From: Opitutia bacterium
GTDB lineage: Bacteria > Verrucomicrobiota > Verrucomicrobiia > Opitutales > Opitutaceae
Length of the DNA stretch: 64,000 nucleotides
Assembly: GCA_947472765.1 (NCBI GenBank)
Contig: CANJCM010000009.1
Span: 1-64,000 of the forward strand
Reading direction: 5' to 3'
Shown here: positions 49,122 through 60,235 of the stretch, one piece after another
Layout of the letters: the number at the start of each line of letters is the position of its first letter
Position numbering within the stretch: position 1 is the stretch's first letter
The notes under the pieces: model-generated
Seen by the model: only the letters and a program-made list of their open reading frames with translations
Told to the model about the DNA's origin: nothing
Database searches by the model: none
Translations under genes and position numbers: made by a program

Positions 49122-49790
49122 TTACGGGATCTTCTGCAGTTCATCCACTGTCCAAGGCTTCCGATCACCTTCCTTGGTACGAATCTCAGTCACCTTGGCG
49201 GTGGTCACCGGCGGGGCCTGATTACCCCATTCCTGACGGACATAGGTCAGGACCGAAGCGACTTTATCGTCACTCCAGTTGAAACCCGACCCCGCCACGC
49301 GACCGAAAGGCGGCATGGCAGAATTGTAATTCGCCCCGTTGACCGTAATCGGTCCCTGCAGGCCGTGCAGCACGATGCGAATTGCGCGTTCCTCGGAACC
49401 CGTGACCCATTCGGAACCAACGAGCGGCGGAATCGCACCCGGCTGCCCAACGCCGTTGGCCATGTGACAGGTGTTGCAGGCTGCGTTGTTGAATAGCTTC
49501 TTGCCTGCGACCACAGGATCGACGGCGACGGCGGCCACCGCGCCACCTTTTACCGGGTGGGCATTCTCGTCGTAGATGTGCGGATCAAAATGCCCGGAAT
49601 AGCGATTCAGGTAAGTGCCCGCGAAGAAGATCAAGCCGCTGAAGAGAAAGAGCAGATTAAGCGGGAGGAGTTTGTACCGCGCCTTCTCGTCAGGCTGCTT
49701 TCCGAGCATGGCCTCATGGACCGAGAGGAGACTCTCGTCGGTGACGGCGGCCTGGTCGATACGGGGATCTGAATTCAACGGCGCGCTCAT
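49122..49790 (-). CDS. Membrane-anchored monohaem cytochrome c (CcoP-like position)
   Basis: A 222-residue protein with one membrane helix (LLPLNLLFLFSGLIFFAGTY, about 41-60) and a periplasmic class I cytochrome c domain. The single haem site is ACNTCHMANGVGQP and the axial Met is in SAMPPFGRVAGSG. Canonical CcoP of cbb3 oxidases has two haems, so this is a reduced or different subunit in the same gene position. It is the last gene of the ACIII operon; its ATG overlaps the CcoO-like stop by 4 bp. Confidence 0.85.
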   Translation of the reverse strand: MSAPLNSDPRIDQAAVTDESLLSVHEAMLGKQPDEKARYKLLPLNLLFLFSGLIFFAGTYLNRYSGHFDPHIYDENAHPVKGGAVAAVAVDPVVAGKKLFNNAACNTCHMANGVGQPGAIPPLVGSEWVTGSEERAIRIVLHGLQGPITVNGANYNSAMPPFGRVAGSGFNWSDDKVASVLTYVRQEWGNQAPPVTTAKVTEIRTKEGDRKPWTVDELQKIP

Positions 49791-50491
49791 TTCTTGGCCT
49801 CCTGCTTCATCTCACTCTTTGCGGCGGGCGCAGCATGGGTTTCAGCATGCCCGGCAGCCGGCGCAGCTTTGGCCGGCGGCGGCAGGGGACGTGATTCCGG
49901 ATAATCGTAGGCCGTATTCAGGCTGAGGAGATAAGCCACGAGGGTCTGGGCACGTTCCGAAGGTACAATTTCGTGTCCTGCCGCGACCGCACCAGCTCCC
50001 GAAACGCGCAGCGCCCGGGCCGAAGACTCGCCGACGATCTGCTTCTCCACAAAAAGGAACTTGTAGGAAGGATGAGTCCCACTGCCCACGTAGAGTAACT
50101 TCATCAGGTCCTCGGAATCCATCGCCGACGGCTTGCGTCCGGCAAGGTTGGTGAGATCCGGACCAATCCGCGAAGCGCCGAGCTGCGGACGGGCTTGATG
50201 AATATAATCACGCGCCACGCTCTGGCGGTCACCCCAACCGCGAGCCTGATCGGAACCGTAATCCGGCCGGCGAACCTGCTGGGTGTGACAGGCGGCGCAA
50301 CCGAGATCCGCGTAAACCAACTGCCCGCGAGCCGCGAGGCCCGTGGTGCGCTCCGGAAAGGACTTACCCTCGGTATCGTCGTAGTACGGCGTCAAGGACC
50401 CGAGTTGGGCATGGGTTCCGAGGACAATGCCACCCCAGGACATGGCGATGGCGGCAAAAAGCCCGACGAGGAAGATGAAACCGTTCTTCAT
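49787..50491 (-). CDS. CcoO-like cytochrome c with altered axial ligand
   Basis: A 234-residue protein related to CcoO/FixO, the monohaem subunit of cbb3 oxidases. A membrane helix (FIFLVGLFAAIAMSWGGIVL) is followed by ADLGCAACHTQQVRRPDYG (haem site, Cys65, Cys68, His69), WGDRQSVARDYIHQARPQLG and SRIGPDLTNLAGR, all close to CcoO. Where CcoO has the axial Met in NMPxYPWL, this protein reads THPSYKFLF, so His140 occupies the Met position. Bis-His ligation and a lower potential are likely. The C terminus is Ala/Pro/Lys-rich. Translation is coupled on both sides by 4-bp overlaps. Confidence 0.85.
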   Translation of the reverse strand: MKNGFIFLVGLFAAIAMSWGGIVLGTHAQLGSLTPYYDDTEGKSFPERTTGLAARGQLVYADLGCAACHTQQVRRPDYGSDQARGWGDRQSVARDYIHQARPQLGASRIGPDLTNLAGRKPSAMDSEDLMKLLYVGSGTHPSYKFLFVEKQIVGESSARALRVSGAGAVAAGHEIVPSERAQTLVAYLLSLNTAYDYPESRPLPPPAKAAPAAGHAETHAAPAAKSEMKQEAKK

Positions 50492-51915
50492 GACGCGTGC
50501 GCCTCCAGCGCGGCAGGCTGACGGAAAGCAGACTCGGCCGCAGCGGATGTGCCACAGCAGACAACGGCGCTCCGGATAAAGTTAACCAGGAGGAAAAGAT
50601 TGGCGGCCAGAAGCGCGACGTTGGCCGCGGTGCCGATCATCAGCGACAGTTTCAGCTGGGTGTAAATCGTCCCCACGCCGAGCTTCGGATTCAAGAGTTC
50701 ATCCCCCTGGGTCCATCCACCGACAGCGAGCGTGACGATGAGCAGGACAACGCCGAGTGACACCAACACGCGATGTCCGGAGGTCAGAGCACCGGAGGCC
50801 CAAGGACGTCCCGTGAGGCGCGGCACCATGTAGTAGATGCCACCAAAGATCATCATCGAGATACCACCATAAAGACCCAGCTGTTCGAGTGCCGTTGCGA
50901 GCAAAGTGAACTGCCATTCGACGGCGACTCCGCGGAAGGAGCTCAACGCGTCGAGCAAACCGGTGAGGGAATAGGCGACGAGGCCAAAACGAATGAAGCG
51001 AATCGCGGTGCCACTACCGTGGCTGGCAATTCTCAGGTTAAGCGCCACGACGATATAGTGGAAAAGCATCATCGAGCAGGCGACCACCGCCATGGTCGCA
51101 ATCCACGCCGGAACCGGGCCGCCGACTAGGTGACGGCCACCCGTCCAGCCGCCGATAACAACCAAGGTCCAGAATCCGAGGGACGAGAAATCATAGCTCG
51201 GCATCGACCGACCCGCGACCTTGGGAACAATATAGTAGGCACCGGTCAAAGCGAGCGGAGCCAGCCAGAGCGACCAGAGGCTCTGCGTGTACCACCCGGC
51301 CGCCACGGCCTGGAGTGTCCCGCGAAGCGGGGCCCACAAGAGGACGATCTGCGCCGCAGAGAACAACCACGGGAAAAGAAAAAGAGCTGCAACACCGTAC
51401 CACTGCGAGGCGTAAAGCCCACTCGTCCGACGTCCACTCCAAGCCAATACTCCGGGGAGTGCGATGGCGCCGTAGGCGATTAACATCAAGGGCTGCACAT
51501 AGCGCGGAAGCTGGAAGAAACCGAACGAAGTCATGTCGCCCGTCCCGATGCCGATCAGACCGATTGTCAGGCCGAGATTCCAGAAAAGCGCACCGGCAAC
51601 CGCCCAGTTAAGAACACGCAAAGGGGAACCGCCGAGGCGTCCCAACACCCAAAGGGCGACCGCCAAACCGGAGTTCGCGATCCAGCCGTACAAAAAAGAC
51701 GTCTCCCGAAGCGCCTGCGCGCGACCGAAGGTCAGAAAAGAGCAATCGGCCAGAAACCCGGGCGTGTGCAGCTGAATCGACGTAATCACGCCCAGCACCC
51801 CGCTGATCACGAGCCAAGCGAGACCCGACGCGAGCAGGACGCAAAGCGGCCCGCGCGCCTGGGAGTCGATGGCAGTGACTTCGGCCGAAGTGGCGTGAGT
51901 CGAATCGTTGGTCAT
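50488..51915 (-). CDS. CcoN-like membrane subunit lacking haem/copper ligands
   Basis: A 475-residue polytopic protein with about 12 helices, recognisable as a cbb3 oxidase subunit I relative by TFGRAQAL, YYIVPKVAGR and IYYMVPRLTGR. Aligned by eye to CcoN, the low-spin haem His of RPLHTN is Arg70. The CuB His of WYGHN is Gln211. The GPHH pair is Arg261-His262, and the cross-linked Tyr is Gly255. The HVH haem-ligand pair is Leu343-Glu344-Gln345. Only His262 remains. It cannot carry the usual binuclear centre. It probably anchors the two adjoining cytochromes c next to ACIII. Confidence 0.82.
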   Translation of the reverse strand: MTNDSTHATSAEVTAIDSQARGPLCVLLASGLAWLVISGVLGVITSIQLHTPGFLADCSFLTFGRAQALRETSFLYGWIANSGLAVALWVLGRLGGSPLRVLNWAVAGALFWNLGLTIGLIGIGTGDMTSFGFFQLPRYVQPLMLIAYGAIALPGVLAWSGRRTSGLYASQWYGVAALFLFPWLFSAAQIVLLWAPLRGTLQAVAAGWYTQSLWSLWLAPLALTGAYYIVPKVAGRSMPSYDFSSLGFWTLVVIGGWTGGRHLVGGPVPAWIATMAVVACSMMLFHYIVVALNLRIASHGSGTAIRFIRFGLVAYSLTGLLDALSSFRGVAVEWQFTLLATALEQLGLYGGISMMIFGGIYYMVPRLTGRPWASGALTSGHRVLVSLGVVLLIVTLAVGGWTQGDELLNPKLGVGTIYTQLKLSLMIGTAANVALLAANLFLLVNFIRSAVVCCGTSAAAESAFRQPAALEAHAS

Positions 51916-51944: not shown

Positions 51945-52277
51945 TTACTTCTTGGCGCCGTACTTGGCCGCAGTGAGTTCCATCGCCCGGTCAATCGGGA
52001 GGCGCACGATTCCGGCTTTCTGGTCAACCCAGCCATACGAATTAGTCTGCTTGGCTTCGTTGGCGCGCAGGTCCTGCAGAGTGGCCCGACGAGCGGCATT
52101 GGTCGCCTTCCACTCGAGTTCCTTGGAGAGGTTTTCCGCAGCCGCGTTTTGAGGCGAGGTCGAGGTCGGGACGTAGAAGTGCCGCACCACGAAGACGAAC
52201 GCCACAAACAGCGCCAGAATGAACACGGTCGTGATCAACGAAACCGGGCGTGCCGGCGTGTCGGATGAATCACTCAT
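51945..52277 (-). CDS. Small single-helix protein of ACIII operons
   Basis: A 110-residue protein with one N-terminal membrane helix (VSLITTVFILALFVAFVFVV) and a charged periplasmic part ending NSYGWVDQKAGIVRLPIDRA. I recall this C-terminal pattern (YGWVD-x-GVVRxPI-x-AM) from small proteins in respiratory operons of Planctomycetes, Verrucomicrobia and Acidobacteria; no function is known to me. The start overlaps the actF stop by 8 bp, and the CcoN-like gene follows after 29 bp. Confidence 0.8.
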   Translation of the reverse strand: MSDSSDTPARPVSLITTVFILALFVAFVFVVRHFYVPTSTSPQNAAAENLSKELEWKATNAARRATLQDLRANEAKQTNSYGWVDQKAGIVRLPIDRAMELTAAKYGAKK

Positions 52278-53541
52278 GATGGGTCAGGCTTTCCGCTATG
52301 CGCGGGTCGCGAATGGGGATCAACTTGGTGGTCGGGAAACTGCGGAGGTAAGCCCAAACGCAGACGCCACCGACGCCGGCCACGGAAGTGAGCACCCAGA
52401 GCAGGTTGATGGAAAGGAATGGGAGCGAGTCGCCGTGCGAATCCTTGAGCGCCGGAAGGACGTTGTAGCAGATGTCGATCAGGATGCTCGTCAGTATCGC
52501 GAGGGCGATGCGCCGGATGATGTGCGGTGTAACCTTGAAGCGATACGACAACAGGGCGAAGAACGGCAGGAAGAAGTGGCCGAAGAGAATAACCAGTCCG
52601 ACGTACCACCATTGGTTGGTCGTACCGTCGTGATTCAATTCACGCAGGTTATACCAGAAGGTTTCCTCGGGCACGTTCGCATTCCAGATGAGGAAATACT
52701 GCGAGAAGGTCACGTAGGCCCAGAACACCGTGAAGGCGAGCATGAGCTGGCCGATGCTGTGAAAGTGATTCGAGTTCAGCACGCCCTTGTAATTTCCCCG
52801 GCCGAGCAGCCAGACCATGATCAGCACGCCGCAGCAAAGTGCACCACGGATGCAATTCGCAAAGAACCAGACACCGTACATCGTCGAGAACCAGTGGTAC
52901 TCCAGGCTCTTCACCCAGTAGATGATGGCCGCCGTGAGGGTGAGGGCCACGATCGGCAGGCCAAACGCCGCCGTCTTCCGGTTCATGAAGGTCCAGCGGG
53001 TGTCGCCGTCCGCATCCTGCGAGAACGACGCTTTCCGCAGGCGGGCGGAGATCCAAATCCAGAGGAGAAAAAATGCGGCCGTACCGATGACGAAGGCCCG
53101 AACATTAAGAAAACCTTCCTTCTTTAGGTAAAGCGGGTCGTGGCCGACAGTGTGGCCGCCATGCAATTCACGGGCCGTGTTCATCCACGGCCAAACCAGA
53201 TCCGATTGGTAGAAGAGCGAGACGAGGATCAGCGGCAGGAAAAGCACGCCGAGCCACCGAAAGGCCATCAAGCCGTGTTCCCACTGCCGGCGAATCACCA
53301 CCGACCACGAAGCATCGACGATATGGTGAATCAGGATGAGCAGCAGCATGCCGAGGGCAATGGCTGTCCAGTAGGTGAGCCCCACCAGGTAGGAGAGTGC
53401 CACCGCCGAAGCAGGTGAAACCAGCAGCCCGAGCGCGGTGGCAGCGAGGCCGATCAGCCCAATGACGAGTGCCCGGCTCGCCTCAGGGGCGGCGGAGGAC
53501 TCGGCCGGCATGGCCGTGGCGGTGACAGCGTGAGAGCTCAT
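52270..53541 (-). CDS. actF: Alternative complex III membrane subunit ActF
   Basis: A 423-residue membrane protein with about ten helices, half-related to the NrfD-type ActC. It is part of the quinol:electron carrier oxidoreductase that replaces the bc1 complex. Visible marks are YWTAIALGMLLLILIHHIVD near the start, LNSNHFHSIGQLMLAFTVFW and YVTFSQYFLIWNANVPEETF, which are typical of ActF. Its ATG overlaps the actE stop (4 bp). Confidence 0.92.
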   Translation of the reverse strand: MSSHAVTATAMPAESSAAPEASRALVIGLIGLAATALGLLVSPASAVALSYLVGLTYWTAIALGMLLLILIHHIVDASWSVVIRRQWEHGLMAFRWLGVLFLPLILVSLFYQSDLVWPWMNTARELHGGHTVGHDPLYLKKEGFLNVRAFVIGTAAFFLLWIWISARLRKASFSQDADGDTRWTFMNRKTAAFGLPIVALTLTAAIIYWVKSLEYHWFSTMYGVWFFANCIRGALCCGVLIMVWLLGRGNYKGVLNSNHFHSIGQLMLAFTVFWAYVTFSQYFLIWNANVPEETFWYNLRELNHDGTTNQWWYVGLVILFGHFFLPFFALLSYRFKVTPHIIRRIALAILTSILIDICYNVLPALKDSHGDSLPFLSINLLWVLTSVAGVGGVCVWAYLRSFPTTKLIPIRDPRIAESLTHHE

Positions 53542-54191
53542 TGAATCCCGAGAGTTTGCCGCGCCGCGGCATCTGTAACATCAGCAGCAGTGCCTTGATG
53601 GGCCCGCTGCAGGGCGCGGATGTAAGCGACCACCGCCCACCGGTCGGCCGGCTCAAGCTTGTCGGCGTAGGGCAGCATGACCTTGCTGACCGAGCCGTTG
53701 GTAATCGTGTTGAAAAGCTCGCCCTCGGTCATGTTGCGAAGACGATCCGTGTGATAGTTGCCATTGGTGGTCAGCGACCCCATCCCGTAACGCAAGGTGA
53801 TGCCATTGCCGTCGCCGGCCGCCCCGTGGCAAACCTGGCAATAGATCGTATACCGATCGCGGCCGCGCTCCAGCAATTGACGGTCGACGGCGATGGCGGC
53901 CGGGAAAGTCTTCACCCAGGCGCCCGCAGCGTCCTTGCCACGAAACAGGTGATCGTCTTCCGCGAGCATTCCGCGCATGACGGTATTGGCCGGCGGCATC
54001 CGGTCGGCGCGGCCATCCGCGAAAAATTCGCTGGAGGACTGCGGGCGGAACTTCGGCTGATACTTCATGCCCGGGAATGCCCACTCCGGGAACACATCAA
54101 GTGGCGGAGAGGTGAATGCGACGCCCCGCAGTCCAAGGATGGACACGAGCAACGCGGCAACGAAGAGAGTGACGAGGTAGACGTGGCGCAT
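53538..54191 (-). CDS. actE: Alternative complex III monohaem cytochrome ActE
   Basis: A 217-residue membrane-anchored or lipid-bound cytochrome c. The N-terminal helix (YLVTLFVAALLVSILGLRG) precedes MKYQPKFRPQSSSEFFADGR, a region typical of ActE. The single haem motif is IYCQVCHGAAGDGNG, with the likely axial Met in SKVMLPYADKL. It would pass electrons from ActA/ActB towards soluble or operon-encoded cytochromes. It lies 2 bp downstream of actD. Confidence 0.92.
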   Translation of the reverse strand: MRHVYLVTLFVAALLVSILGLRGVAFTSPPLDVFPEWAFPGMKYQPKFRPQSSSEFFADGRADRMPPANTVMRGMLAEDDHLFRGKDAAGAWVKTFPAAIAVDRQLLERGRDRYTIYCQVCHGAAGDGNGITLRYGMGSLTTNGNYHTDRLRNMTEGELFNTITNGSVSKVMLPYADKLEPADRWAVVAYIRALQRAHQGTAADVTDAAARQTLGIQ

Positions 54192-54193
54192 GG

Positions 54194-54727
54194 TCAGGCC
54201 TCCAGCTCCGAAATCGCACGTCCCCCGGCCTGCTCCAGCAGCGCCTTGGTATTCGCGAGGTTGAACCGGGGATCCCGGGCTTCGATTACAATGAAGAAGG
54301 TATCGTCCATCCCGCGCCGGATCTGATCGTACTTCAGGACCGGGTGGTAATGCATCGGCAGTCCGTTAACCACGAACATGCCAATGATGGTCGCGAAGGC
54401 AGTAAACAGAATCGTGAGCTCGTAGCTCACCGGGAAAGCGAACATCGGACTGAACAACGGTTTTCCGCCCACCACCAACTGGTAGTCAACGGCGCCCGTC
54501 CACCAGATCATCGTCATACCGGTAAAGAAACCGGTGATGCCGCCGGCGAGTGAAATGCGGGGGACAATGGAACGCTTCAGGCCCATGGCTTTGTCCAAGC
54601 CGTGCACCGGCATCGGCGTAATGCAGTCCCAGTGCCGGAAACCGGCATCACGAACCTTCTCCGCCGCGTGATAAACGTCACGGGCGGTGTCGAAGCTGGC
54701 AATCAGGCCGTAAAGTGGTGCAGCCAT
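54194..54727 (-). CDS. actD: Alternative complex III subunit ActD (DUF3341)
   Basis: A two-helix membrane subunit of about 177 residues. YGLIASFDTARDVYHAAEKV, RHWDCITPMPVHGLDKAMGL and ELTILFTAFATIIGMFVVNG are conserved ActD features. HYHPVLKYDQIRRGMDDTFF and then FIVIEARDP follow the second helix. I chose the ATG at 54727, just after the actC stop, because conservation starts there. An ATG at 54775 adds 16 residues and overlaps actC by 41 bp. Confidence 0.9.
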   Translation of the reverse strand: MAAPLYGLIASFDTARDVYHAAEKVRDAGFRHWDCITPMPVHGLDKAMGLKRSIVPRISLAGGITGFFTGMTMIWWTGAVDYQLVVGGKPLFSPMFAFPVSYELTILFTAFATIIGMFVVNGLPMHYHPVLKYDQIRRGMDDTFFIVIEARDPRFNLANTKALLEQAGGRAISELEA

Positions 54728-54734
54728 GGTGGAA

Positions 54735-56177
54735 TCAGTGGGCTTGGCCCGAGGAGCCTTCGTGGGCGTGGACATCGGCCTGCGGAGTCACGGCCTTGAG
54801 TTCCGCCATCGGCATGACCGGCAGGAACCGGATGAAGAGCAGAAAGAGCACGGAGAATACGCCGAAGGTCCCAAAGAAGGTGAAGATTTCCACGATGCTG
54901 GGCGAGTAATAGCCCCAGCTCGACGGCAGGAAGTCGCGGGCGAGCGAGGTCACGATGATGACGAAGCGCTCGAACCACATTCCGACGTTTACGAAAATCG
55001 AGAGCACCCAGACCATCGTGGTGTTCTGACGCACCTTCTTGAACCAGAAGAACTGCGGCGTGATCACGTTGCACGAGATCATGATCCAGTAGGCCCACGC
55101 GTAGTGACCGAAGGCGCGATTGATGAAGGCGAACCCTTCGTACGGGTTCGTACTGTACCACGCGATGAAGAACTCCATCCCGTAGGCGTACCCGACGATC
55201 GTTCCGGTCGCCAAAGTGATCTTACACATGCAGTCGATGTGGTACTGCGTGATCAGATCCTCGAGTCCGTAGATGGCGCGCAACGGCAGCATCAGCGTGA
55301 GTACCATCCCGAAACCGGAGAAAATGGCGCCAGCGACGAAGTAAGGCGGGAAAATCGTCGTGTGCCAGCCCGGCAGCAATGAGACGGCGAAGTCGAACGA
55401 AACGATCGTGTGCACCGACAGCACCAGCGGCGTCGAGATGCCGGCGAGGATCAGGTACGCCATCTCGTAGTTGCTCCAATGACGGTTCGACCCACGCCAG
55501 CCCATCGCGAAGAGGCCGTAGAGGAAGGAGCGGAATTTGTTTCCGGCGGCGTAGAAGCGATCGCGCAGCACCGCGAGGTCAGGTAGAAGTCCGATGTACC
55601 AGAACAGGACCGAAACCGTACCGTACGTCGAAACCGCAAACACGTCCCACTCGAGGGGCGAACGGAAGTTCTGCCAGATGATGTTCGAGTTCGGAATCGG
55701 GAAGAGGTACCAGGCGTACCAAACGCGACCGACGTGGAAGACTGGGAAAATCGCCGCACAGACGACGGCGAAAATCGTCATCGCCTCGGCCGCACGATTG
55801 ATCGAGGTGCGCCATTTTTGCCGCAGGAGACAGAGAATGGCCGAGATCAGGGTGCCGGCGTGGCCGATGCCGATCCAGAAGACGAAATTGACGATGTCCC
55901 ACGCCCAGTTGACCGGATTGGCGTGACCCCAGACGCCGACGCCCGTGGCGACGAGGTAGGTGATACCCCCGACGGTGAAGCAGGCGATAAACGCGGCGAC
56001 CGCGAAACACACCCACCACCAAGTCGGAGTCTCGTCCTCAATGATCCCGCAAATCTTGTTCGTGATCCAGGAGAAGCTGCGGTTGTTCTCAACGAGCACC
56101 GCACGCGGGAGTACCGCGGGGTTCACTTCCCGAAGGATGGCCGGAGTGACGGCGGAGGAATCGGCGACGTGAGCCAT
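54735..56177 (-). CDS. actC: Alternative complex III NrfD-like subunit ActC
   Basis: A 480-residue polytopic protein of the NrfD family with about ten helices, the main quinol-interacting membrane subunit of ACIII. Blocks include [60 protein letters not shown] and [20 protein letters not shown]. The final helix region is followed by a His/Ala tail. It lies 51 bp downstream of actB and just ahead of actD. Confidence 0.95.
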
Positions 56178-56228: not shown

Positions 56229-59200
56229 TCAGTGCCCACCCTTCTTGACTTCGGTGTCATGGCCGCCGGCATGCGGAGCCGCCGCCTCGTGCGCGCCACC
56301 GTGGGTGTCCGGCACGTTTTTCTTGTTATACTCCACCCGGCTAAGCGGGAGGCTGCCATAATCCGGCATCTTGGGATTGGGATTCCTCAGCTTGCCCGAA
56401 TAAGTGGTCCGCGGGCGGGTGTTGAGATAACCCAGTACCGCATAATCCTGCTCCCGGGCCTTCGCCTTCGAGACCGCGCTATTGGGATCGAGAATGTTGC
56501 CGAAGACGATCGCGTCGACCGGGCAGGTCTGCGCGCAAGCCGGCTTGACCGCACCATCGGGGACGACGACGTCACCCGGGCGGCCGGCTTGGGTCATCTT
56601 CACCTTGTGCTGAATCTTGGCGTTCTGGATGCGCTGCACGCAGTAGGTGCACTTTTCCATCACGCCGCGCATCCGGACCGATACCTCGGGATTCTTCGCC
56701 ATCTTCACGAGTTCCGGCATGCCGAAAGGAGCAAGCTGGCCCATGTAGAGCTGGTCGAGGGAGCGCTGATTCCAGTCGAAGAAGTTAAAGCGCCGGACCT
56801 TGTACGGACAATTGTTCGCGCAATAGCGGGTACCGATGCAGCGATTGTAGGCCATGACGTTCAGGCCTTCGTCGTCGTGCACGGTCGCATTGACAGGGCA
56901 CACCGTTTCACACGGCGCCAACTCGCAATGCACACAGGTCATTGGCTGCAGCGAAATCTGCGGATCCTCCGGCAACTCGCGATTGCCTTCGCCGCCGAAT
57001 GCCCCGGCGTCTGCCGTCCCGCTGGAATAATAGCGGTCCAAGCGGATCCAGTGCATCTCGCGACCCCGCATGACCTGCTCCTTGCCCACGATCGGAATGT
57101 TATTTTCCGCCTGGCAGGCCACCACGCAGGCGTTACAGCCGATGCAGGTGTTGAGGTCGATCGACATGCCCCACTGATGGTGACCGTCGAGCTTGGGCGT
57201 CTGATAAAGGGAATTGCCGCGCGGAATCTGCGTCGCCCGCTCCGCCGGCGTCATCTTTTCGCCGTATTCGCCCAGAATTGTCGGGGAGTGTGACTCCATG
57301 CCGATCTTCGTCACGAAAGCCGGATCGTCCTGGTAGCTGTTCGCGCCTTCGTAATTGGCTTCGCGAACGATATCACGGCCTTCCATCGACCAGTGCTCCT
57401 GGGTGTTCGCAAGCAGCATGCGGTCACCGGTAGCCGTGAGCTTCCCACCTGTCGCGACGTTCATCGCGCCCGAGGTCCGCAGCGCGTAGCCGTTAAAGCC
57501 GGCACCCTTGCCAACGTGACCCGCCACCGTCCGGCCGTAGCCGAGCGGAACGACAATCGTGTAATTCGAGAGACCCGGTTGGATGTGCACCGGGCCGCGA
57601 ATCTTGCGGCCACCCACCGTCAATTCGAAGACGTGCGCGTTTTCTTTACCGATGCTGAAATCGTTTTCTTCCTTCCGGACGACTTGGATCAGGGATCCCT
57701 TCGGATCGATGCCGAGATCCTTGCCGAGGCGGGGACTCACCAGGATCGCGTTGTCCCAGGAAATTTTCGTGATCGGATCCGGACACTCCTGCAGCCAGCC
57801 GTTGTTGGCAAAGCGGCCATCATCCATCTTGTGGTCGGCCACAAAACGGACCTCGAGATTGTCCTTGCCCAAGGCCACCGGCGTGGAGGACCGGAGGAGC
57901 GCCGTGACGCCCTGACGGTTGAAATTCACCGTAGCCTTCTCGTAGGCGGAACCCGCGATCAAGCCGTCGTGCAGGAACCGGCGAACGGCCTTTTCGGCAT
58001 TCGCCCCCGCCGTGGCGGAAATCGTCTCAACGACCAACGCGTAGGCATCGGCGGTAGCGTTGCCAGCAATCCGCGCCAGCACTTCGATCTGCGTCAGCCC
58101 GCCAAAAAGCGGGAGAATCATCGGCTGAATCGCCACGATCGTACCGTCCGCCGTGCGGGCATCGCCCCACGACTCGAGGTAGTGCGCGGCCGCGAGATGC
58201 GTCACGTTCGCCGCCGAGGAGGTTTCGTCCAGGGAGTAGCCGAGACGGACGACTTCGCCGACGCTCTTCTGCAGCGCAGCCCACTCGAGGTCCGCCGGCG
58301 CATTGTAGGCCGGATTGCCACCGAGGATGACGAGCGTGCGGATGGACCCGCCCTTGATGGCAGCGGCGAGTTCAGAGATGGACGCCGCGGAAGTAGCGGG
58401 AACGCGCACCAGCTCCAACGTCTGGCCCACATTACCGAGGGCTGCGTTGATCGCGTAAGCCAGAGCGTGCACTTCGGCCGGGAGATGCGCGCCGGCGACC
58501 ACGAGGGACTCACCGCGATGCGCCAGCAAATCCGCGGCACATTCGGCGACCCACTGCGGCTTGACGTCGAGGCCGGCGCCCAGCGCCTGCACCGAACTGC
58601 GGAGATTGGAATCCACGGCGCCGGCCAGCTGCGCCGCCAGAGCGAGCATGTGGCTGGTGGCAAGCCGCAGGCGGTGATCCGCCATGCTGCCGGTGAGCGT
58701 CAGCGCGCTCTCCGCCACATACAGGCGGTTCATGGGATCGTCCTTCTTCGCCACCCGGCGGCCCTGGGAGAATGCCCGGGCGTAGGCGAGGCTGCCGGCT
58801 TCGGCATGCAGGAAATCGCAATCGAGCGAAACAATGCGCTTCGCCTTGGCGAAACGGTAGACCGGCTTCACGCCGGCACCAAAGGCAGCCTGCGTCGCCG
58901 CGACGGGCGCCTCGTCGGAAATCGGCTCGTATTCCGACCAGATCGCACGGGGAAACTTGCTGCGCAATGCGGCCACGAGGCGGGCGCGGGTCGGCGACGA
59001 CGATTCGTCCGCCAGAAAAGCGAGACCGGTGCCCTGGTTCGAGGCGTAGTTCTGGCCAATGCCGGCGAGAAGCGCGTTGACTGCATCCGCCTTGATGATC
59101 GCTCCACCCTTGGTGTGGGCGGTCGAGCGATCCGGATCGTAAAGATCCAGCAGGGATGCCTGGGCAGCAAGCGAAGCCGCGCCACCATGCGGCTCGTAGG

Positions 59201-59585
59201 TGGGATTGCCTTCGACCTTCGTCGGACGGCCTTGATGGGTTTCCGCGAGCAGCGGGATGGCCCATTTGCGCACCGGAAAAGCGGTCGCGTAATATTGGGG
59301 AAGACCGGGAATGACCCCCTCGACCGACTTGCCGAATGGCAGGATATTGCGTTCCGGGCGGCGGCAGCCCGCCACGCCCACTCCACCGAGCGCAAAAGAC
59401 GCCGCCATCAACTTCATGAACTGCCGGCGATCAACGCCCGTCAGCTCCGAAGCACCTTCGGGAAATTCGCGCTGCAACTGCGCCTTGAAACCGGGCGTTT
59501 CGGCCAGTTCGTCGAGGCTGCGCCAGTACTTGGGCCCGGTCAGCTCGCGTTCAGAAGGCGCCGGATGTTCAAATTTGCGTTTCAT
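56229..59585 (-). CDS. actB: Alternative complex III ActB (molybdopterin-like/Fe-S fusion)
   Basis: A 1118-residue periplasmic subunit. A twin-arginine signal is at residues 53-74 ([18 protein letters not shown], ending VAGC, which could be lipidated). The first two-thirds resemble a molybdopterin oxidoreductase (ActB1) without evident cofactor motifs, as known for ACIII. The C-terminal third is a ferredoxin-like ActB2 with Cys motifs [41 protein letters not shown] and CAQTCP, enough for three [4Fe-4S] and one [3Fe-4S] cluster. The His/Gly-rich C terminus is unusual. It overlaps actA by 4 bp. Confidence 0.95.
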
Positions 59586-60235
59586 CGATGACAGCCGGAA
59601 CAGCTTTCCGGGGCCTTGACCTTCCAGTTGTGCAAGAATTCCTGCGCGTCCTTTTGACGCCCCTGTTCCGCCAGCGTCTTCGAATCCAGATTGAAGACAT
59701 CCTTCGGGTCGCGAATCCGGTTTTCCGGATTACGATGGCACTCGATACAAAACGCCATGCTCAGCGGCTGCGCGTGGCGGACCGTATCCATTTCGTTGAC
59801 CTTGCCATGGCACTCAACGCACGAAACGCCGCGGTTTACGTGGATCGAGTGATTGAAGTAGGCGTAATCCGGCGTCGTGTGAATCCAGACCCACGGAACC
59901 GGTGTGCCCTTTTCGTAGCTCTCGCGCACCGGGGCCAGCAGCGGGCTGGTGGCCTTTACGACGCTATGGCAGTTCATGCACGTCTGCGCGGTGGGAACGT
60001 TGGAATGGCCGGACTTGTCGACGTTCGAGTGACAATAACGGCAATCCAAGCCGACTTCCTGGACGTGCTTGGCGTGGCTGAAGGGCACGGGCTGGACCGG
60101 CGCATAGCCGACCCGCGTGTACTTCGGCGTCATGTAGTAGGTCACGCCGGCGGTGGCGATCCCGACGAGCACGCCCAGATAAACGATAATCTGGAGCGGC
60201 AGCTTGTTGACCGACTTCGGGAAAAGTTTCGACAT
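59582..60235 (-). CDS. actA: Alternative complex III pentahaem cytochrome ActA
   Basis: A 217-residue membrane-anchored cytochrome with five CxxCH motifs: CRYCH, CMNCH, CVECH, CIECH and CSGCH. The N-terminal helix (LQIIVYLGVLVGIATAGVTY) is followed by PVPFSHAKHVQEVGLDCRYC and NRGVSCVECHGKVNEM, closely matching ActA. It takes electrons from ActB. The 4-bp overlap with actB points to coupled translation. Confidence 0.95.
   Translation of the reverse strand: MSKLFPKSVNKLPLQIIVYLGVLVGIATAGVTYYMTPKYTRVGYAPVQPVPFSHAKHVQEVGLDCRYCHSNVDKSGHSNVPTAQTCMNCHSVVKATSPLLAPVRESYEKGTPVPWVWIHTTPDYAYFNHSIHVNRGVSCVECHGKVNEMDTVRHAQPLSMAFCIECHRNPENRIRDPKDVFNLDSKTLAEQGRQKDAQEFLHNWKVKAPESCSGCHR

Follow-up and report, generated by a model that had tools for sequence, protein, structure and literature searches.

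The presence of a haem-copper oxidase subunit I is commonly taken as a mark of O2 or NO reduction. We analysed a gene for such a subunit in positions 1 to 64,000 of contig CANJCM010000009.1 (assembly GCA_947472765.1) from an Opitutia bacterium of the family Opitutaceae; this whole stretch is referred to as the window. The gene, at positions 50488 to 51915 of the minus strand, encodes a homologue of CcoN, the subunit I of cbb3-type (C-type) oxidases, and lies in an operon for alternative complex III (ACIII). Its predicted fold is complete while its metal sites have been lost, so that reduction of O2 in the known way is very probably impossible. A loss of this kind seems to be recurrent and widespread among the ACIII-linked homologues of Verrucomicrobiota. 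We consider it probable that the protein is a former C-type oxidase subunit I that now serves as a cofactor-free scaffold, anchoring c-type cytochromes to ACIII.

A relation to cbb3 subunit I had been proposed in an earlier reading made by eye from the letters of the window (the sequence-only reading), and profile, sequence and structure matches all bore it out. The 475-aa product matched the Pfam COX1 profile at 95 bits (E = 4e-27) and the CcoN profile TIGR00780 at 79 bits, far under the equivalog cut-off of 583 of the latter. Ligand columns were assigned from a phmmer alignment to five CcoN sequences of the PDB, which spans approximately residues 32 to 405, and from aligning the protein by MAFFT with the CcoN encoded elsewhere in its genome. 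Both alignments placed R70 in the column of the low-spin haem b His, Q211 in that of the first CuB His, G255 in that of the helix VII Tyr whose cross-link marks a cbb3 subunit I, R261-H262 at the CuB HH pair, and L343 and Q345 at the b3 His and b His, respectively, of the HxH motif; every entry of the by-eye assignment agreed. We take R70, Q211, G255, R261, H262, L343 and Q345 to match H60, H207, Y251, H257, H258, H345 and H347 in Pseudomonas numbering. Of six His ligands only H262, the second of the HH pair, is kept, and five His ligands and the cross-link Tyr are gone. The place of the C-family Glu, presumably E323, is occupied by Leu; it holds Glu in all four canonical CcoN sequences of our set and in none of the 28 ligand-complete relatives linked to act genes. 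H286, which the earlier reading had considered as a possible hidden ligand, lies off the ligand positions and is replaced by Pro in the same 28 relatives.

The statement that the fold is kept, with about 12 helices, likewise held. An AlphaFold model built with 76 sequences had a pLDDT of 89.8, a pTM of 0.90 and 12 long transmembrane helices in the haem-copper oxidase fold. In Foldseek searches with this model, cbb3 subunits I ranked first, with a TM score of 0.86, followed by cytochrome c-dependent nitric oxide reductases. Superposition on the cbb3 oxidase structure 3mk7 by VIA-align gave a Z score of 50.2 and a root mean square deviation of 1.8 Å over 438 residues, at approximately 20% identity. 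The ligands were judged on columns based on CcoN rather than on NorB, and the predicted fold is closer to CcoN than to NorB. An origin from nitric oxide reductases was rejected, since NorB structures scored below CcoN and the ligand-complete relatives carry the Tyr.

The surrounding genes are all on the minus strand, in the order actABCDEF-orf110-ccoN-fixO-cytP, with small gaps or none between them:

59582 to 60235, minus strand: actA, multihaem cytochrome c of ACIII.
56229 to 59585, minus strand: actB, 4Fe-4S domains by Pfam, named by place.
54735 to 56177, minus strand: actC, Pfam NrfD.
54194 to 54775, minus strand: actD, Pfam ActD.
53538 to 54191, minus strand: actE, monohaem cytochrome c of ACIII.
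52270 to 53541, minus strand: actF, ACIII membrane subunit, without a Pfam match and named by place.
51945 to 52277, minus strand: orf110, a 110-aa protein with one hydrophobic stretch, between actF and the ccoN-like gene.
50488 to 51915 (start at 51915), minus strand: the ccoN-like gene, cbb3-type subunit I homologue of 475 aa, ligands lost.
49787 to 50491, minus strand: fixO-like, monohaem c-type cytochrome with an N-terminal hydrophobic stretch and its CxxCH kept.
49122 to 49790, minus strand: cytP, monohaem cytochrome c, CcoP-like but with one haem, its Met (AMPPFG) kept.

All of actA to actF are thus present and contiguous, C and D being recognised by Pfam, A, B and E by domain and place, and F by place. 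ActA carried five CxxCH motifs in all 36 homologues counted. The FixO-like protein matched Pfam FixO at 38 bits, above the cut-off of 29.6. BLAST found a match to orf110 in most related loci, in both ligand states.

We collected relatives by whole-genome searches within Verrucomicrobiota. A first search, of 57 genomes including that of the window, gave matches in 48; canonical CcoN fusions occur among the weaker of these, at approximately 86 bits or below. From the genomes of named species a scan yielded at least 513 relatives, and we kept the best 80 of these 513, ranked by their similarity to the window; all 80 came from organisms named as Verrucomicrobiota. A search across the phylum matched 122 of 387 genomes at 1e-30, 93 of them in the class of the window, where the best matches, above approximately 250 bits, belonged to the act-linked family. 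Act genes were lacking at L181 to L183, the three loci taken from genomes beyond this class. With 80 more stretches added to the locus set, 161 distinct sequences were aligned, the window included: 151 act-linked, four canonical CcoN and six without act genes. The neighbourhood was highly constant. Wherever a locus gave an ActF match (144 of 144), actF lay on the same strand and directly upstream. Seven family loci gave none: a contig end truncates six of them, and L090 has other act genes. fixO followed directly in 150 of 159 loci, the other nine being seven with overlapping same-strand stop-to-stop open reading frames (ORFs) and two canonical fusions. In the stretches examined, ActE and ActF but not ActB, C or D were matched at L165, and CytP was unmatched at L148. 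We propose a family of ACIII-linked ligandless CcoN proteins, recognised by a place after actF and before fixO and by an incomplete ligand set, all of which the window displays.

The full ligand set was present in 38 of the 161 sequences, comprising the four canonical CcoN, which also have the C-family Glu, the six without act genes and 28 that are act-linked. An incomplete set was found in 123 of the 151 act-linked sequences, the window's among them, and in this family only; since the kept set leans to the window's kin, 123 to 28 is no natural frequency. Within the alignment, L028 and L092 are truncated ahead of the first ligand and L172 is gapped at one ligand. None of the six His was kept in 23 of the 123, one in 94 and two in six. 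The latter include L158 and L159 (family f25), which keep exactly both low-spin haem b ligands and no CuB or b3 ligand and could represent a haem-b-only intermediate. The copy at L027 (genome G029) is ligandless, as are those at L095 and L097, two loci of Cephaloticoccus.

We defined the clade of the window as all sequences that share at least 45% identity with its protein, 78 in number, with none between 39% and 45%. It was first chosen partly by its own residues (Gly/Ser/Ala at 255 and Arg at 261), and redefinition by identity alone returned the same 78 and the same counts. No member is ligand-complete. Universal loss among act-linked homologues, which the sequence-only reading had put forward for checking, holds in this clade but not in the family at large, where 28 of 151 are complete. 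Several replacements are close to fixed in the clade (R261 in 78, G255 in 75, Q211 in 73 and Q345 in 71), H262 is retained in 72, and H286 (77), E71 (71) and C58 (70; in a predicted loop) are newly conserved. The 28 ligand-complete relatives have Leu and His at the places of E71 and R261. Two ligand positions vary within the clade: position 70 is Q in 33, R in 21 and A in 18, and position 343 is Q in 50 and L in 13. Between lineages the replacement signatures differ (for example, QGRH..Q, AHSSR.RW, FEAAD.VQ and HSAQK.FI), which would fit separate losses.

In the 28 act-linked sequences that are ligand-complete (for example, L029, L103, L109, L144, L170 and L174), I, Q, T, L, A or M replaces the cbb3 Glu, and they may constitute a distinct subfamily of C-like oxidases. 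The C-type-like genes at L181 to L186 are ligand-complete and have no act genes around them; Gln takes the place of the cbb3 Glu, and a FixO match lies nearby.

That the gene is not simply decaying, as had been suggested, is supported by conserved replacement residues, an intact predicted fold and purifying selection. The median ratio of nonsynonymous to synonymous substitution rates (dN/dS, by NG86) was 0.155 over 120 ligandless pairs with dS below 2, from 122 pairs 70 to 98.5% identical. For ligand-complete pairs, with the canonical sequences among them, it was 0.17 (70 of 81 pairs); in neither set are the pairs independent. No internal stop was found among the class matches listed. We then asked where in the protein conservation had eroded, taking the 158 columns in which the 28 complete sequences show at least 90% conservation and averaging their retention over 19 ligandless lineages. 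Retention was 0.00 to 0.16 at the seven catalytic columns (0.05 at the catalytic Tyr) and 0.23 at the conserved Ser of column 244. Assuming a cytoplasmic N terminus, it was 0.49 in the periplasmic helix halves, which form the cofactor side, 0.53 in the cytoplasmic loops, 0.67 in the cytoplasmic helix halves and 0.75 in the periplasmic loops. The periplasmic loops were kept better than the periplasmic helix halves (p = 0.003), and the erosion has its focus at the cofactor pocket.

How often the ligands were lost depends on the tree consulted. The tree of the ccoN-like gene itself (105 rows, after 74 clade rows were cut to a few and rows of 380 residues or less were removed) groups most ligandless sequences together, several on long branches, and requires three changes of state, two of them forced by starred branches. 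A quick tree of ActC (83 rows) gave 14 changes, five forced; a tree of ActB, C, D and F (83 rows, LG+G4, without L172, L176, L090 and L161 and without rows having fewer than three act genes) gave 15, of which 12 were forced; and a tree of FixO and CytP gave 11, five forced. A single ancient loss was rejected: by the approximately unbiased test, holding the ligandless rows in one clade had p = 0.000346 on the gene's own data (a thinned set of 83 of the 105 rows) and p = 4.8e-46 on FixO plus CytP (96 rows). The trees conflict over L101, L103, L104 and L106, so that some of the changes may be transfers of whole ccoN-fixO-cytP modules. We read the direction as loss because the outgroups are ligand-complete and regain of seven residues is implausible. 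We give no exact number; the trees would imply three losses on the gene's own tree and up to approximately 15 if those of the partners are taken at face value.

The haem motifs of the partner cytochromes have been kept. CxxCH was present in the best FixO match of all 123 ligandless loci and in the best CytP match of 120 of 121, two more loci having no CytP match; these are best BLAST matches, with position verified for FixO only. The best CytP match without CxxCH, in the ligandless cluster L107, may not be the right gene. The CytP Met column held Met in 112 of 120. Downstream DNA of 4.5 kb or more was available for 82 ligandless loci, and in 15 of these a gene for an A-type subunit I (coxA) lay within 5 kb downstream on the same strand. 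The same held for 2 of the 29 complete loci with enough DNA, six of these 29 being without act genes. Where the arrangement was inspected, coxA came directly after the cytochrome gene in five of seven (L160, L161, L164, L167 and L109), and a 314-aa ORF intervened in L170 and L176. At L160 and L161 the order is ccoN-fixO-cytP-coxA, the ccoN-like gene being ligandless, then a coxC-like ORF and, further on, a coxB-like one (by eye). Such loci suggest that the module can sit between ACIII and an aa3 oxidase. L160, L161, L164 and L167, with act genes upstream and coxA straight after, are candidate operons for an ACIII-aa3 supercomplex.

We next considered which other oxidases the same cells encode. 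The genome of the window has two further PF00115 proteins, an A-type subunit I (L001) and a canonical CcoNO fusion (L002), and hence the gene studied here is not its sole oxidase-like gene; L001 adjoins a subunit II-like ORF bearing CxxCH and looks caa3-like by eye. No cydA was found in this genome. In a hand-counted census of 80 chosen genomes (PF00115, E of 1e-8), all 57 with a ligandless gene carried another PF00115 protein, while 2 of the 23 with a complete gene (G046 and G194) had no other, a contrast that is suggestive only. Neither G046 nor G194 had a match to PF01654 (cydA). The complete act-linked form, as the sole PF00115 protein of genomes without cydA, is thus probably a working oxidase. 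These two genomes, of 1.3 to 1.7 Mb, have the act-linked C-like gene (L226 and L224) as the only terminal oxidase detected.

Published work names a cbb3-type oxidase for verrucomicrobial methanotrophs (PMC10205796), adjoining ACIII in the accessible parts of two of the reports (PMC8498564 and PMC11102522). Among eight searched genomes of family f24, six had pmo genes and were taken as such methanotrophs. Five of these six carry the act-linked gene, and all five copies are ligandless, with one of six His and no Tyr; the signature is SESSHGFV in four (L160/L223, L221, L222 and L227) and ADAAHLQT in one (L161/L220). None of the six pmo-bearing genomes yielded a canonical CcoN. On this evidence, the ACIII-adjacent gene that has been published as a cbb3 oxidase seems to be of the ligandless kind and is probably no oxidase.

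These observations can be joined in the following model. The ancestor would have been an ACIII-linked cbb3-like oxidase module, ccoN-fixO-cytP, within the act operon. In lineages with another oxidase, low-spin haem b, haem b3 and CuB would have been lost while the fold and the partners were kept. The resulting 12-helix membrane protein, presumably containing neither haem b nor copper, would assemble with ACIII and hold the FixO-like and CcoP-like cytochromes at its electron exit. Electrons would then pass from menaquinol through ACIII and on along the haems in the periplasm, to be received by an aa3 oxidase or by a soluble cytochrome c, and would no longer enter the membrane. An anchor between ACIII and cytochromes c was one of two roles suggested from the window itself; synteny, the CxxCH motifs and some downstream aa3 genes make it the better supported of the two, and we infer it on these grounds.

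Several observations weigh against such a scaffold, a role that we derive from computation. The window's own operon has no oxidase gene after cytP, and no downstream coxA was found in 67 of the 82 ligandless loci. The FixO haem, moreover, is less uniform than a simple wire would predict. In the FixO of the window, CxxCH is present and the column of the axial Met of CcoO holds His (GTHPSYKFLF), so that the CcoO/FixO pattern of CxxCH plus Met is incomplete. All 34 ligand-complete loci, 28 of them act-linked and six not, have Met in this column, whereas in the 123 ligandless loci the column is Met in 67, His in 36 (the window included), Cys in eight, all of one lineage other than the window's, Lys in four, Arg in three, Ser in one, Ala in one and a gap in three. 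FixO may therefore not be a high-potential wire in every lineage; probably its haem has been kept but retuned in many ligandless loci. The protein also evolved faster after ligand loss: the median ratio of CcoN-like to ActBCDF distances was 0.97 for the 228 complete pairs but 2.22 for the 778 ligandless ones, with 2.01 for 863 mixed pairs. Together with the low dN/dS, this indicates that constraint has been altered rather than removed. Finally, retention in the periplasmic loops did not differ significantly from that on the cytoplasmic side (p = 0.06), which makes cytochrome docking no more than a candidate for the selected feature.

Two alternatives start from the residues newly conserved in the old pocket. 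The first, which had been raised beside the anchor, is that a redox cofactor is still bound through new ligands, for example a haem on H262, a Gln or a Glu, or a metal at E71-R261-Q211-Q345. The near-fixation in the clade of R261, H286, Q211, Q345, E71 and H262 would be expected of a binding site, and other lineages keep partial sets, up to both low-spin haem b ligands in L158 and L159. However, the replacements are lineage-specific and share no new ligand pair, none or one of the six His places is kept in 117 of 123 sequences, and a search for gained His, Met or Cys returned H286 and C58 only, with no His or Met to partner H286. A different cofactor is therefore possible but unlikely. The second is that E71, Q211, R261, H262, Q345 and H286 form a charged and polar network in the old cavity that conducts or gates protons with electron flow. 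E71 (71 of 78) and R261 (78 of 78) are conserved in the clade in place of the Leu and His of complete relatives, and dN/dS is low; on the other hand, Ser of column 244 and the catalytic Tyr are poorly retained (0.23 and 0.05), other ligandless lineages do not share the network, which could be mere repacking, and the burial and proximity of its residues are read off the CcoN alignment. We regard it as no more likely than the first. In a broader version, repeated conversion has produced a cofactor-free device in which the network of the emptied cavity would link the movement or gating of protons to the exit of electrons from ACIII; we hold this to be improbable too.

A third alternative is that the protein is a relic kept only as a membrane partner for assembly of FixO and CytP and is heading for loss. 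The raised distance ratio (2.22 against 0.97 in complete pairs) would be expected of a relic. A dN/dS of about 0.15, replacements nearly fixed in 78 sequences, the lack of internal stops noted above and actF directly upstream in 144 of 151 family loci all speak against it, and we think such a relic improbable, slightly more so than the two cavity proposals. The identity of approximately 20% to canonical CcoN invites suspicion of misalignment, sequencing error or a pseudogene, which we dismiss as very improbable: the reading frame is uninterrupted along all 475 aa, with none of the frameshifts that the earlier reading had allowed for, genes from other assemblies (80% and 72% identical) agree with it at every ligand place, dN/dS is low, and the structure match is full-length. 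Nor are the ligands hidden by misalignment, as none of the 123 ligandless sequences has an HH within 12 residues of the column; HxH occurred near the b3 column in 3 of 123, and a His within six residues of the H60 column in 21 and of the H207 column in 21.

Many members of one bacterial class carry well-conserved copies of an oxidase-family subunit that very probably cannot reduce O2 or NO. Some genes described as oxidases probably encode cofactor-free proteins that serve as scaffolds for electron carriers. Published energy schemes of verrucomicrobial methanotrophs seem to count a ligandless gene as a cbb3 oxidase. The family offers a testable case of how an oxidase is absorbed into ACIII, and its natural series (complete, haem b ligands only, and none or one) could be used to dissect the assembly, electron-transfer and proton-transfer parts of the fold. 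Were the cavity network real, a haem-copper oxidase fold would be operating without haem b or copper. In the titles and abstract openings of the Creative Commons-licensed literature searched, we found no description of a ligandless act-linked CcoN. Pei et al. in 2014 reportedly treated oxidase-related families and might touch on this one. An "unknown group" of oxidases (Muntyan et al. 2015, as mentioned in the accessible part of PMC5492636) might also include it.

Among known systems, the cbb3 subunits I (3mk7, 8smr, 6xkw, 9g6b and 9g83) are the closest, sharing the 12-helix fold, the YYxVPK motif and FixO/CcoO- and CcoP-like cytochromes encoded next. The window's protein differs from them in having lost five of six His, the cross-link Tyr and the C-family Glu, in its act operon setting and in an identity of about 20%. 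The CcoP of cbb3 oxidases is a two-haem protein, unlike the CytP of the window, which has one haem. NorB (4xyd and 3o0r) has the same superfamily fold, with Z scores of 41.8 to 43.5 against 47.8 to 50.2 for CcoN, and retains its His ligands. An ACIII-oxidase supercomplex has reportedly been found in Rhodothermus marinus. Flavobacterium johnsoniae has an ACIII-oxidase supercomplex too (PMC8361435). In both organisms the partner of ACIII is an active oxidase, and the accessible part of PMC8361435 does not mention a cofactor-free subunit. An ACIII-linked C-type oxidase has been noted in Opitutaceae and verrucomicrobial methanotrophs (PMC8498564, citing Refojo et al. 2010); from its place by the act genes, it very probably belongs to the family described here, called cbb3-type in the part of that source available and ligandless in our analysis. 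A functional parallel may be found among NrfD-like subunits without redox cofactors, which, as far as the available part of PMC8076601 goes, are membrane anchors of peripheral redox subunits, as the window's protein seems to be. They form a separate family that interacts with quinones (PMC8076601, same part), and ActC of the window's own operon belongs to it.

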